Source: a virus. From it: a stretch of 27,557 bases of DNA. A model generated the notes under the pieces. The model worked only from the letters and a program-made list of their open reading frames with translations, ran no database searches and was not told the DNA's origin. A program made the position numbers and the translations under genes. The stretch spans positions 1-27,557 of IMG/VR virus record IMGVR_UViG_3300034082_000892; one strand, 5' to 3'. This document shows, in pieces, positions 5,907 to 23,374 of the stretch (within the stretch, counting starts at the first letter, position 1; every line of letters starts with the position of its first letter).

Positions 5907-6168
5907 TCCAAATCAAACCTCTGCTCGTGGCGACTGGCTCTGTCCTTGTAGTGGATGTTCAAAGTCTATTGCAGCAGAACGCAAACAACTGATTGAATTA
6001 TTTGAAAAACATAAGTATGACTACTTAGTTTATCGTGGTTCATCATTTGATCAGGATGGTAATTTAATGTGGGCTAAAGATGATACTGAAGCATATGCTG
6101 AGGGCATTGATGAAGTTATTAAGTTGATTAAAGAAAGAATGCTCAAGCCTAAAATTAAGCACCAGTAG
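5899..6168 (+). CDS. Cys-rich hypothetical protein, 89 aa
   Basis: It starts at GTG 5899 within the end of the previous gene. CPCSGC near residues 15-20 is followed by a long helix and a YLVYRG segment, resembling small actinophage proteins that carry GDWLCPCxGCxKS. The last 10 nt overlap the 5' end of the tRNA gene that follows, so the transcript could be cleaved within the coding region when the tRNA is processed. Confidence 0.6.
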   Translation: MADPNQTSARGDWLCPCSGCSKSIAAERKQLIELFEKHKYDYLVYRGSSFDQDGNLMWAKDDTEAYAEGIDEVIKLIKERMLKPKIKHQ

Positions 6169-6232
6169 CCAAGTTGGTTAAGGCACCGAACTCATAATTC
6201 GGCTATCGTAGGTTCAAGTCCTACCTGGTGTA
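6159..6232 (+). tRNA. tRNA with CAT anticodon (Met or Ile2)
   Basis: All four arms fold: acceptor GCACCAG/CTGGTGT, D stem GCC/GGC, anticodon stem CCGAA/TTCGG with loop CTCATAA, T stem GTAGG/CCTAC with loop TTCAAGT. The first pair is G-U and there is no C-A mismatch as in initiators, so it is an elongator Met or, if lysidine-modified, Ile2. The 3' CCA is not encoded. Confidence 0.85.
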
Positions 6233-6236
6233 CTAA

Positions 6237-6308
6237 ATCTCTGTAACTCAGCGGAAGAGTGACACCCTTCTAAGGTGTAGGTCGTAGGTTCAAATCCTAC
6301 CAGAGATG
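6237..6308 (+). tRNA. tRNA-Arg (TCT)
   Basis: Acceptor ATCTCTG/CAGAGAT, D stem ACTC/GAGT, anticodon stem ACACC/GGTGT with loop CTTCTAA (anticodon TCT), T stem GTAGG/CCTAC. It reads AGA/AGG, codons frequent in this AT-rich genome and likely rarer in the host. The CCA is not encoded. It is 4 nt after the preceding tRNA. Confidence 0.9.
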
Positions 6309-6341: not shown

Positions 6342-7301
6342 TTGGCTAAAATTGTTTTTCTAGGAAACTTTGAGGTTTCTTATAGTAGTGAGAATCATCA
6401 TGCTAAGAGTCTAGAATCTCTTGGGCATACCGTTGTAAAATTGCAAGAAAAGCAAGCAAAAAGCCACGTAATTCTTGATCAAGCCTTGAACTCAGACCTA
6501 TTTATTTGGGTACATACCCATGGCTGGGAGACAAGCGGAAGAATTACAATGGATAATGTTTTGCTTGAGTTAAAGAAGGCAGGCGTAGAAACAATTACCT
6601 ACCATCTTGATCTATGGTTTGGACTTGATCGCCAGAAGGATCTTGAAGACGATAACTTTTATAAAACCATTGGTCACTTCTTTACAGTAGATAAGTTGAT
6701 GGCTGATTGGTTTAATGAGAACACACAGGTAAAGGGACACTTTATTCCTGCAGGAGTTTATGATAAAGAATGTTATATCCATAAGGACTATGACTCAGAT
6801 AAGTTTAAGTATGACGTAATATTTGTGGGTAGCAAGAGGTATCACCACGAGCATAAGTATAGATCAGACCTTATAGATTTTCTAAGAAAGACTTATGGAA
6901 GTAGATTTCTTCACGTTGGTGGTGACGGAGACACTGGAACTGTGCGTGGTGATGAGTTAAATAAGATATACGCACAAAGCAAGGTGGCAGTAGGAGATAG
7001 CCTTAACATTAACTTTAACTATCCTTATTACACTAGTGATAGGTTGTTTGAGAGTACTGGTCGTGGAGGATTTACTATCTACCCTCGCATCAAAGGTTTA
7101 GAAGATTACTTTGTTGATGAAGAAGAAATTGTTTTTTATGAACACGGTAACTTAGAAGATCTAAGAACTAAGATAGACAAGTATCTTGAAAATGGTGTTG
7201 ATAGGGAGCGTATCAGGTTAAGTGGCCATGAAAAAACTAAGCAAGAGCATACATACATCCATAGATGGAAAATCATTATGAGTGAGTTAGGAATACAATG
7301 A
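6342..7301 (+). CDS. CgeB-like glycosyltransferase, 319 aa
   Basis: A GT-B type fold is suggested by an N-terminal Rossmann-like half (KIVFLGNFE, residues 3-11) and a C-terminal half beginning near DVIFVGS (about residue 160). The C-terminal half carries RLFESTGRGGF (about residue 235), the CgeB/GT4-like segment that holds the donor nucleotide-sugar, and the usual closing segment EIVFYEHGNLEDL. Full length for the family. It starts with TTG after a good ribosome binding site and overlaps the next gene by ATGA. It would transfer a sugar from an NDP-sugar to an unknown acceptor, and it opens a run of glycan genes. Confidence 0.75.
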   Translation: MAKIVFLGNFEVSYSSENHHAKSLESLGHTVVKLQEKQAKSHVILDQALNSDLFIWVHTHGWETSGRITMDNVLLELKKAGVETITYHLDLWFGLDRQKDLEDDNFYKTIGHFFTVDKLMADWFNENTQVKGHFIPAGVYDKECYIHKDYDSDKFKYDVIFVGSKRYHHEHKYRSDLIDFLRKTYGSRFLHVGGDGDTGTVRGDELNKIYAQSKVAVGDSLNINFNYPYYTSDRLFESTGRGGFTIYPRIKGLEDYFVDEEEIVFYEHGNLEDLRTKIDKYLENGVDRERIRLSGHEKTKQEHTYIHRWKIIMSELGIQ

Positions 7302-8182
7302 ACTGTATAGTGACGGGTGGTGCTGGATTTATTGGATCAAACCTTGTTGATAAGTTAATTAGTCTTGGTCATGATGTTATTTGTGTTGATGATGAGTCTG
7401 CAGAGTGTCATGAACAATTCTATTGGAATGATAAAGCACAAAACTATAAGTATGATATTTGTGATTATGATCTGATTGCCCCACTCTTTAAAGATATTGA
7501 CTGCGTATTTCACGTTGCATCTGATGCAAGAATACAGCCAGCAATACTAAATCCTAAAAAATCTATTCAATCAAACGCAGTAGGAACAGCCAATGTTCTT
7601 GAACTTTGTAGGGTTAACAAGGTAGGTAGACTAATTTATTCAAGCACATCTTCTGCATATGGAAAAAAGTCCTTTATTCCAAACACAGAAACTCAGCAGT
7701 CTGATCCACTAACACCTTATTCCGCAGCAAAAGTTTTTGGGGAAAATTTAGCAAGAGTGTATTATAACTTGTATGGTTTAGAAACTATATCCCTTAGATA
7801 TTTTAACGTTTACGGAAATAGACAGCCCCTTAAAGGTCAGTATGCACCAGTAATAGGGTTATTCTTAAAACAATACCACGAAGGAAAGCCATTAACGGTA
7901 GTTGGAGATGGATCTCAACGCAGAGACTTTACACACATATCTGATGTAGTAGAAGCAAACATCCTTGCATCTCAGACAAAAGATGGGTTTGGTGAAGTAT
8001 ATAATATTGGGTATGGAAATAACTACTCTATACTTGATATTGCTAATATGATTTCAAATGATGTTAAGTTTATCCCGTCAAGAGTTGGAGAGGTTCAAGA
8101 AACTCTTGCGTCTAACTCTAAGTTTAAAAATTTAACTGGATGGATGCCAAAGGTATCACTAATAGAATGGTTGCAAAAATGA
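7298..8182 (+). CDS. NAD-dependent sugar epimerase/dehydratase, 294 aa
   Basis: It has the SDR-extended features: the glycine motif GGAGFIGS (residues 7-14), an acidic residue after beta-2 (VDDE), the SSTSSAYG segment with the catalytic Ser/Thr, and Tyr141-xxx-Lys145 (YSAAK). Then come RYFNVYGNRQ and RRDFTHISDV, typical of UDP-glucose 4-epimerase-like enzymes. It is slightly short at the C-terminus compared with GalE. It probably makes a UDP- or other NDP-sugar for the glycosyltransferases around it. The exact substrate cannot be told. Confidence 0.85.
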   Translation: MNCIVTGGAGFIGSNLVDKLISLGHDVICVDDESAECHEQFYWNDKAQNYKYDICDYDLIAPLFKDIDCVFHVASDARIQPAILNPKKSIQSNAVGTANVLELCRVNKVGRLIYSSTSSAYGKKSFIPNTETQQSDPLTPYSAAKVFGENLARVYYNLYGLETISLRYFNVYGNRQPLKGQYAPVIGLFLKQYHEGKPLTVVGDGSQRRDFTHISDVVEANILASQTKDGFGEVYNIGYGNNYSILDIANMISNDVKFIPSRVGEVQETLASNSKFKNLTGWMPKVSLIEWLQK

Positions 8183-19586: not shown

Positions 19587-20188
19587 TACTTATTCTTCAA
19601 TACCTTAGTTACCGCTGGTTTCTTGGCTGCAGGAATTGCTACCTCTGCCTTTAAGAGCAGTGCAGCGCCTTCTTCACCAGCATATACTGGACGGCCCCAA
19701 CCCACGATTCCGTTAAGTAACTTCTTCTTGTTGTTCTTAACATATGCACGAGTTTTCTCTACGCACATACCGCCATTTCGTTGGTCTCCCTTTGCAGTTC
19801 CTGAAGTGTTTCCTTCAATAACCTGGATAGTTCCATCTCCGTTGTTCTTAATACAAATACCAACGTGTGAAATACGATTTACACCATCATCTGGGAAATC
19901 AAAATAGATCCAGTCACCTGGTGTGGGATCGTCATTACGAGCATCTGCCCAACGATTATTCTTTTTAAACCAATCTGATGCTGCTACTGTTGATGCTGAT
20001 TTTGGATACTTCTTTGCATCTAAGCCAGATGTGAATGCACACCAAGAGACAAATGATTGGCACCATGGCTGAAAATTCATTCCAGTCCATTTACCATACT
20101 TTGTTTCATTATCTTTGGGACCTTCAATGGTTCCAACTTCTTTCTTTGCAACCTCAATGATTGCTTCTAATGAGCCTTTGACAGCCAT
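19586..20188 (-). CDS. CHAP-domain endolysin, 200 aa
   Basis: The catalytic cysteine lies in WCQSFVSWCA (Cys43), the histidine in ISHVGIC (His108), and the third residue in QVIEGNT (Glu125), in the CHAP order. The domain fills residues 8-170. The remaining 30 residues are Ala/Lys-rich with no recognised cell-wall binding repeat. It would cut peptidoglycan (endopeptidase or amidase). AGGAGG precedes the ATG, and a consensus promoter lies 28 nt upstream. Confidence 0.85.
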   Translation of the reverse strand: MAVKGSLEAIIEVAKKEVGTIEGPKDNETKYGKWTGMNFQPWCQSFVSWCAFTSGLDAKKYPKSASTVAASDWFKKNNRWADARNDDPTPGDWIYFDFPDDGVNRISHVGICIKNNGDGTIQVIEGNTSGTAKGDQRNGGMCVEKTRAYVKNNKKKLLNGIVGWGRPVYAGEEGAALLLKAEVAIPAAKKPAVTKVLKNK

Positions 20189-20215: not shown

Positions 20216-20245
20216 ATTATAGCATTAAGCAGTCTTGCTTGTCAA
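20216..20245 (-). promoter_or_regulatory. Endolysin promoter TTGACA-18-TATAAT
   Basis: On the minus strand TTGACA (20245-20240), 18 nt, TGC-TATAAT (20221-20216). Both hexamers match consensus and the -10 is extended. Most of it lies in the last codons of the HNH gene. A leader of about 20 nt with AGGAGG follows. Confidence 0.65.
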
Positions 20246-20500
20246 CCTGTTGTGAGTTCTTATCCTGTGACAGTTTGCACATACTACTTCACATTTTTCT
20301 ATTTCTTTTTTTATTGCTGCCCAGGAAAATCCGTCGTGAATCATCCTAGAAATATTATATTTTTTATTGTGAAGATGATCAAAATCTAAAACTATATGAT
20401 TACATTCTCCACAGTCAACACAGCCACTTGCCTCTTTGATTAGTCTAAGACGCATCTTGAATTGCTGTTTATTATAAACTGCCAATTCTTTATCTGACAT
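20225..20500 (-). CDS. HNH endonuclease, 91 aa
   Basis: A clear zinc-stabilised HNH: CVDCGE (first pair), LDFDHL (the first His of the active site), then CEVVCANCHRIRTHNRL with the second pair and closing His. Full domain with only a short N-terminal helix before it. It could assist DNA packaging or be a free-standing homing enzyme. TATAAT lies 8 nt before the ATG, so the leader would be about 2 nt. Confidence 0.85.
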   Translation of the reverse strand: MSDKELAVYNKQQFKMRLRLIKEASGCVDCGECNHIVLDFDHLHNKKYNISRMIHDGFSWAAIKKEIEKCEVVCANCHRIRTHNRLTSKTA

Positions 20501-20525
20501 AGATCTTAATTATACACCTAAATGT

Positions 20526-20611
20526 AAAGCCCTACACAGGCATTCCAGGCACTAGGCCACGGTAGATATAATGGGTAACTATTACCATCTCTAAGGTCCT
20601 GTGTAGGGACC
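20526..20611 (-). ncRNA. Candidate structured small RNA
   Basis: On the minus strand TATACT (20623-20618) precedes a GG start at 20611. From there GGTCC-CTACACA-GGACC can form a local hairpin (20611-20595). Alternatively CCCTACACAGG (20608-20598) can pair perfectly over 11 bp with CCTGTGTAGGG (20540-20530). Between these arms is a perfect GGTAA-TAG-TTACC hairpin and a second short hairpin (GGC/GCC). The two long pairings exclude one another, which would give a two-state RNA. No reading frame of note is present. It fits none of the tRNA rules. Confidence 0.55.
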
Positions 20612-20623
20612 AACACAAGTATA

Positions 20624-23146: not shown

Positions 23147-23220
23147 TGGAGCGGATAGCGGGAATCAAACCCGCACATTAACCTTGGCAAGGTTACGCAC
23201 TATCACTATGCAATATCCGC
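23147..23220 (-). tRNA. tRNA-Gly (GCC)
   Basis: Acceptor GCGGATA/TATCCGC, anticodon stem TAACC/GGTTA with loop TTGCCAA (anticodon GCC), T stem GCGGG/CCCGC, discriminator T as usual for glycine. CCA is encoded (23149-23147). It reads GGC and GGT and stands just before two very glycine-rich genes. Confidence 0.9.
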
Positions 23221-23224
23221 ATTG

Positions 23225-23297
23225 TGTCTCCAACGGGATTTGAACCCGTGTTATTGCCGTGAAAGGGCAACGTCCTAGGCCCCTAGACGATGGAGAC
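23225..23297 (-). tRNA. tRNA-Glu (TTC)
   Basis: Acceptor GTCTCCA/TGGAGAC, anticodon stem TTGCC/GGCAA with loop CTTTCAC (anticodon TTC), T stem ACGGG/CCCGT. Discriminator A. CCA is not encoded. Confidence 0.9.
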
Positions 23298-23298
23298 T

Positions 23299-23374
23299 TG
23301 GCTGGTCTGGTAGGCCTCGATCCTACGACTTGCGAATTAACAGTTCGCCACTCTACCAACTGAGTTACAGACCA
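23299..23374 (-). tRNA. tRNA-Asn (GTT)
   Basis: Acceptor TGGTCTG/CAGACCA, anticodon stem GCGAA/TTCGC with loop CTGTTAA (anticodon GTT), T stem GTAGG/CCTAC. Discriminator G and an encoded CCA (23301-23299). It is the first tRNA of the minus-strand array. Confidence 0.9.

Follow-up and report, generated by a model that had tools for sequence, protein, structure and literature searches.

The gap between an hsp20 gene and a gene for a small HNH nuclease in an IMG/VR virus record (IMGVR_UViG_3300034082_000892, whose 27,557 bases constitute the window analyzed here) holds a real, conserved and previously uncatalogued family of folded phage RNA. The element, examined at positions 20526-20623 of the window, had been picked out in an earlier note as a candidate structured, bistable small RNA that could time lysis. 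We find at least 150 distinct forms of the RNA in environmental phage genomes, absent from RNA catalogues and in a nearly one-to-one relationship with the nuclease gene: the two are present or absent together and occur together at many genomic positions. Based on this comparative analysis, we tentatively propose that the RNA and the adjoining HNH nuclease constitute one functional mobile module, in which the RNA is a predicted partner or inhibitor of the protein.

A conserved folded RNA family in environmental phages

The family was gathered by pattern scans of IMG/VR. Both exact arms of the long helix P1 recovered 61 contigs, with the spacing between the arms nearly constant, and the inner motif GGACCTT..GATGG..AGTTACC recovered at least 119 stretches, to which a variant scan without the GGA added one genuine copy (L342), its other matches being due to chance. 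Removal of duplicates left 155 distinct copies of an RNA of about 85 nucleotides (nt), 54 diverse representatives of which make up the alignment A1; the covariance model, R1, finds a single copy of the RNA per contig. The fold energy of the window copy is modestly unusual (z -2.03, with 8 of 200 shuffled sequences folding equally well). Hence, it is not the energy that places this RNA beyond chance, but the recurrence of its arms in those 61 contigs and of its inner motif in more than 100 stretches, along with the covariation of the arms. The features of the window, all on the minus strand, are as follows:

20525..20611, minus strand: structured RNA of ~85 nt with an inferred start at 20611, based on the 54-copy alignment, covariation and model R1; only a weak U-tract on its 3' side
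20618..20623, minus strand: -10 hexamer of the RNA promoter, TATACT (TATAAT or TACAAT in most relatives)
20598..20608, minus strand: 5' arm of P1, CCCTACACAGG; 11 base pairs (bp), 8 of them with compensatory change, 99.8% of alignment cells paired
20591..20597, minus strand: single-stranded joiner ACCUUAG leading from P1 to P2; conserved, with a mean pairwise distance of 0.10
20572..20589, minus strand: P2 hairpin GAUGG..CCCAU with loop NNUAGUUA; pairing in 95.9% of cells, no variation in the loop columns, distance 0.07
20545..20562, minus strand: P3, a variable hairpin CCGUGGC..GCCUGG; weak, with 77% of cells paired and alternative versions in subclasses
20530..20540, minus strand: 3' arm of P1, CCTGTGTAGGG; same helix evidence as the 5' arm
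20509..20514, minus strand: -10 hexamer of the HNH gene, TATAAT, 8 nt before its ATG
20225..20500, minus strand: probably leaderless gene for an HNH nuclease of 91 amino acids (aa); PHROG HNH families at 3e-21, RNA upstream in relatives, dN/dS (ratio of nonsynonymous to synonymous substitution rates) ~0.07

Viewed on the plus strand, CCCTACACAGG at 20530-20540 perfectly complements CCTGTGTAGGG at 20598-20608 over 11 bp. The earlier note had described these arms and their perfect pairing, as well as a GGTCC/GGACC hairpin (20595-20611) and an inner GGTAA/TTACC hairpin, exactly as they are found in the sequence. It had also proposed a covariation analysis among relatives, which reveals abundant compensatory changes in P1: in the 54-copy alignment 8 of the 11 pairs show double compensatory changes, with slid or shuffled controls scoring far lower. 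None of the 46 distinct arm sets has lost the helix, two isolated mismatches being the only ones among 506 pairs, and the most divergent arms (GCTCTGCACGGG/CCTGTGCAGAGC and GCCTCACGTAGG/CCTACGTGAGGC, for example) still form it. When the deviations from canonical pairing are read in the minus-strand sense, there are nine distinct instances of G.U as against one of A.C, which points to an RNA of the minus strand.

Inside P1, the consensus consists of the joiner ACCUUNG, the P2 hairpin GAUGG-NNUAGUUA(C)-CC(C)AU with a nearly invariant UAGUUA in its loop, an A/U-rich joiner and the variable P3. Real covariation is confined to P1, with P2 being supported by conservation and P3 weakly. The first joiner and P2 differ between copies by distances of 0.07-0.10, as opposed to 0.43 at the third codon positions of the HNH gene. 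A pairing of the P2 loop with the joiner between P3 and P1 was considered and dropped, as that joiner varies whereas the loop is constant. The complement of the loop yields two minus-strand matches to GGTAACTA in the window, at 19613 and 12259, neither of them recognizably at a translation start.

The RNA appears to be transcribed from a promoter of its own. Of 152 copies, 142 have a -10-like hexamer whose end lies 7-9 nt (in one case 10 nt) upstream of the P1 arm, as compared to 1.1% of background positions, and this fixed spacing suggests that the transcript probably starts with P1 or immediately beside it. In the window, the hexamer TATACT (20623-20618) would start the transcript at 20611. 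The earlier note's proposal of a folded minus-strand transcript driven by a separate promoter is borne out by the covariation of P1 and the recurrence of the -10 element. In a subset of copies, P1 is instead separated from the -10 by an additional 5' hairpin module, GTCGGGGGAGACAGCGAC. At the other end, the stretch 3' of P1 is 46% T, with the longest T-run not exceeding five, which leaves it without a clear terminator.

Rfam 15 gave no match to the window element at the gathering threshold and, at the same threshold, nothing but tRNA and tmRNA in 13 related loci; when three diverse members were searched with an E limit of 10, all matches were unrelated and due to chance. Cultured phages had no match to the element in BLASTN searches, and R1, run with filters off around their HNH genes, recovered only fragments of 19-37 nt with E of at least 0.06. 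A scan of a collection of bacterial genomes with the core motif gave seven matches, none with the arms, which we judged to be due to chance. The literature that was searched, with incomplete coverage, contained no description of this RNA.

Linkage of the RNA to a small HNH nuclease gene

The 91-aa protein encoded just downstream corresponds to a nuclease part only, aligning to residues 95-175 of the 211-position family phrog_2255. It evolves under strong purifying selection (the dN/dS above is a median), with an invariant DFDH motif and a near-invariant CxNCHR motif. Its structure model has a mean pLDDT (predicted local distance difference test) of 78 and draws only weak PDB matches, with E of 3 or worse, among them the HNH enzymes Cap5 and SciA. 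The HNH motif and the occurrence at several genomic sites agree, by sequence, with a free-standing HNH homing endonuclease, and the free-standing HNH homing endonucleases of the Streptomyces phages Tribute, Wofford and JimJam are homologous to it. The nearest HNHs of cultured actinophages differ in that they are mostly annotated as 125-147 aa, lie mostly among tRNA genes and have no credible copy of the RNA beside them. Given that the window HNH resembles those of actinophages and the window endolysin those of Streptomyces phages, the host of the phage is likely to be an actinobacterium. Among HNH relatives, the commonest layout places a TATAAT 7-9 nt before the ATG, and a Shine-Dalgarno-like tetramer occurs in none of 145; the proximal -10 and the want of a Shine-Dalgarno motif together indicate that the HNH mRNA is probably leaderless.

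The association of the two is seen from either side. Of 150 informative distinct copies, 146 have an HNH open reading frame (ORF) immediately after the RNA, and in loci found by the DNA pattern alone, independently of the protein, a strictly defined HNH ORF comes next in 143 of 152 informative copies. Conversely, the RNA is upstream of 142 of the 147 HNH homologs; among the five without it directly upstream are two that a glutathione-peroxidase-like gene separates from the RNA, as well as two distant paralogs. Across 49 contigs, 24 have both RNA and HNH, one the RNA only, one the HNH only and 23 neither; this is a strong pattern in a set of fragments picked by RNA, hsp20 or HNH, not a random sample. 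The pair is found in at least eight upstream contexts: its neighbors on that side are hsp20 (~106 copies), a pseudoknot RNA, a tRNA and several unrelated genes, with the pseudoknot context lying within a group of 28 copies that have no gene end just upstream. At L211 and L262 the glutathione-peroxidase-like gene (so called on the basis of the N-terminal part alone) stands directly 3' of the RNA and is followed by the HNH; at L209 the same gene is in that position, and no HNH occurs before the stretch ends.

A proposed mobile RNA-nuclease module and its alternatives

In the module that we tentatively favor, the conserved P2 loop and joiner would bind the HNH protein, and the bound RNA would either keep the nuclease inactive or else direct it as a guide or cofactor. 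The phage genome could thereby be protected as the module passes from one co-infecting phage to another. That the RNA might restrain or direct the nuclease is suggested by an analogy of layout with RNA antitoxin systems. In the type III toxin-antitoxin system ToxIN, as outlined in PMC5772629, a structured RNA encoded beside the effector binds and inhibits it, and PMC12373285 outlines a comparable RNA-antitoxin arrangement in AbiF/RCd22, where the RNA binds and inhibits a small effector and AbiF is found in a prophage. Common to them and the present pair is a folded RNA whose gene adjoins that of a small effector; the effectors in those accounts are the ToxN ribonuclease and an Abi_2-family protein, as against an HNH nuclease here. 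The type III order of RNA upstream of nuclease gene, on the same strand, recurs in the 146 of 150 copies noted above, and an antitoxin role of the RNA is putative. The protein is an HNH by its PHROG matches rather than of the ToxN/CptN/TenpN fold, and the RNA is a single unit devoid of tandem repeats and of an Rfam match, with inhibition predicted by analogy.

Several observations weigh against such a module. Distances between copies of the RNA track those of hsp20 (r 0.38) slightly better than those of the HNH (r 0.30), implying that the parts recombine within the segment and are not necessarily matched to each other. In phage L226 the RNA is present but is not adjoined by this HNH, and contig L160 contains the HNH but not the RNA. 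Moreover, no variable, target-matching guide segment was identified in the RNA, although no systematic search for targets was made. A more specific version, in which RNA (~85 nt) and protein (91 aa) would form a minimal RNA-dependent nuclease, the RNA supplying the targeting or switching of a longer protein, as a new kind of mobile element unrelated to CRISPR or OMEGA, is improbable. The OMEGA systems (IscB/IsrB with omega RNA, or HEARO, and TnpB with reRNA) are mobile units that couple a structured RNA to an adjacent nuclease, which contains an HNH domain in IscB and IsrB. The present protein differs from them in being covered by HNH-family matches, with nothing of the IscB/IsrB/TnpB type or of RuvC or PLMP domains, and its RNA is short, lacks a discernible guide segment and has no match to the Rfam HEARO model. 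Phage-encoded structured RNAs are also exemplified by GOLLD and ROOL, which are ornate, several hundred nt long and often near tRNA islands (PMC12286853); the RNA described here is much shorter and tied to an HNH gene.

Other explanations are possible, and we rank an independent small RNA first among them, followed by a cis-acting leader and then by an element acting as DNA. Both L226 and the hsp20-tracking distances, together with the RNA's own promoter, are what one would expect if it were an independent, trans-acting phage small RNA, such as a decoy or a binder of host RNA or protein, with a selfish HNH gene that settled beside it and hitch-hikes. This somewhat unlikely scenario sits poorly with the co-occurrence of the pair at unrelated positions and with the 23 hsp20-bearing contigs without the HNH, which are also without the RNA. 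Less likely still, read-through transcripts from the RNA's promoter might fold P1, P2 and P3 as a leader controlling HNH transcription or mRNA decay, as an attenuator or 5' stabilizer. The RNA does share its strand with the HNH ORF, which it precedes by 7-32 nt, with a T-rich tail after P1, and in relatives the same slot holds other structured 5' RNAs; yet the leaderless HNH with its own -10, the short T-runs in place of a clear terminator, the extra gene between RNA and HNH at L211 and L262, and an alternative hairpin without covariation all speak against it. It is quite unlikely that the inverted repeat functions in DNA, as a cruciform, a single-strand fold or an HNH recognition site for mobility. 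While it adjoins a mobile nuclease gene and is preserved by compensatory change, the bias to G.U in the sense of one strand, the fixed spacing of the -10 to the 5' arm and the strong conservation of unpaired loops are not the marks of such an element.

The riboswitch-like bistable RNA timing lysis, as read in the earlier note, is the least probable. The mutually exclusive pairings on which it was built exist in the window sequence, but of the two only the long helix is conserved among relatives. The competing 5' GUCC/GGAC hairpin is present in 38 of 46 variants and lost in the other eight, which retain P1; it shows one double change, a level matched by 178 of 500 shuffles. A weak role for this hairpin is favored by L018, where GACC/GGUC replaces GUCC/GGAC in a compensated swap, and by L342, which keeps a wobble pair. 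With the alternative helix not above shuffles, no Shine-Dalgarno at the HNH gene and T-runs of at most five, an expression platform of the riboswitch or attenuator kind is lacking. Control of lysis is likewise unsupported: the HNH gene carries a separate -10, the endolysin is preceded by a consensus promoter (TTGACA-18-TATAAT at 20245-20216), and many relatives have a gene other than an endolysin after the HNH. The genes are compactly spaced, most loci having an extended -10 (TAATGCTATAAT) for the next gene directly after the HNH stop codon (20225-20188 in the window).

If the RNA does control or guide the nuclease, the module would add a compact RNA-protein system to the few known in phages. 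Even if it does neither, this is a new RNA family, and alignment A1 and model R1 can be used to annotate viral metagenomes.

Other motifs at related loci

Between hsp20 and the next gene, several related loci (L010, L015, L039, L040, L042, L003, L006, L051, L227 and others) carry another motif absent from RNA catalogues, an H-type pseudoknot of the form AGAC-CU-GAGCA-N-GUCU-nUAAAC-UGCUC, with no Rfam match at these loci. The two strands of its second stem change together (GAGCA/UGCUC, GGGUA/UGCCC, GGACA/UGUCC), and a search for it finds 75 instances in the loci as against nine in mononucleotide-shuffled sequence. At some loci a -10 precedes it and the endolysin Shine-Dalgarno comes after it, and at others the next -10 follows at once. 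A conserved 5' module, GTCGGGGGAGACAGCGAC..TAAATACCTGGCAT, follows the -10 downstream of hsp20 in L027, L043, L051, L053, L055, L063 and L086 and is succeeded by either the pseudoknot or the new RNA. A longer conserved leader, ATTCCG..CAACGGATGCTCC..GTTAGCAGGAGTCGAATCTTCGTGGCT, with the same pseudoknot at its end, is seen in L006, L042, L057, L074 and L223 and is possibly a further structured RNA. Elsewhere in the window there are five tRNA genes in two clusters (6159-6308 and 23150-23374) and, at 7298-8182, a nucleotide-sugar epimerase-like gene resembling those of cyanophages.
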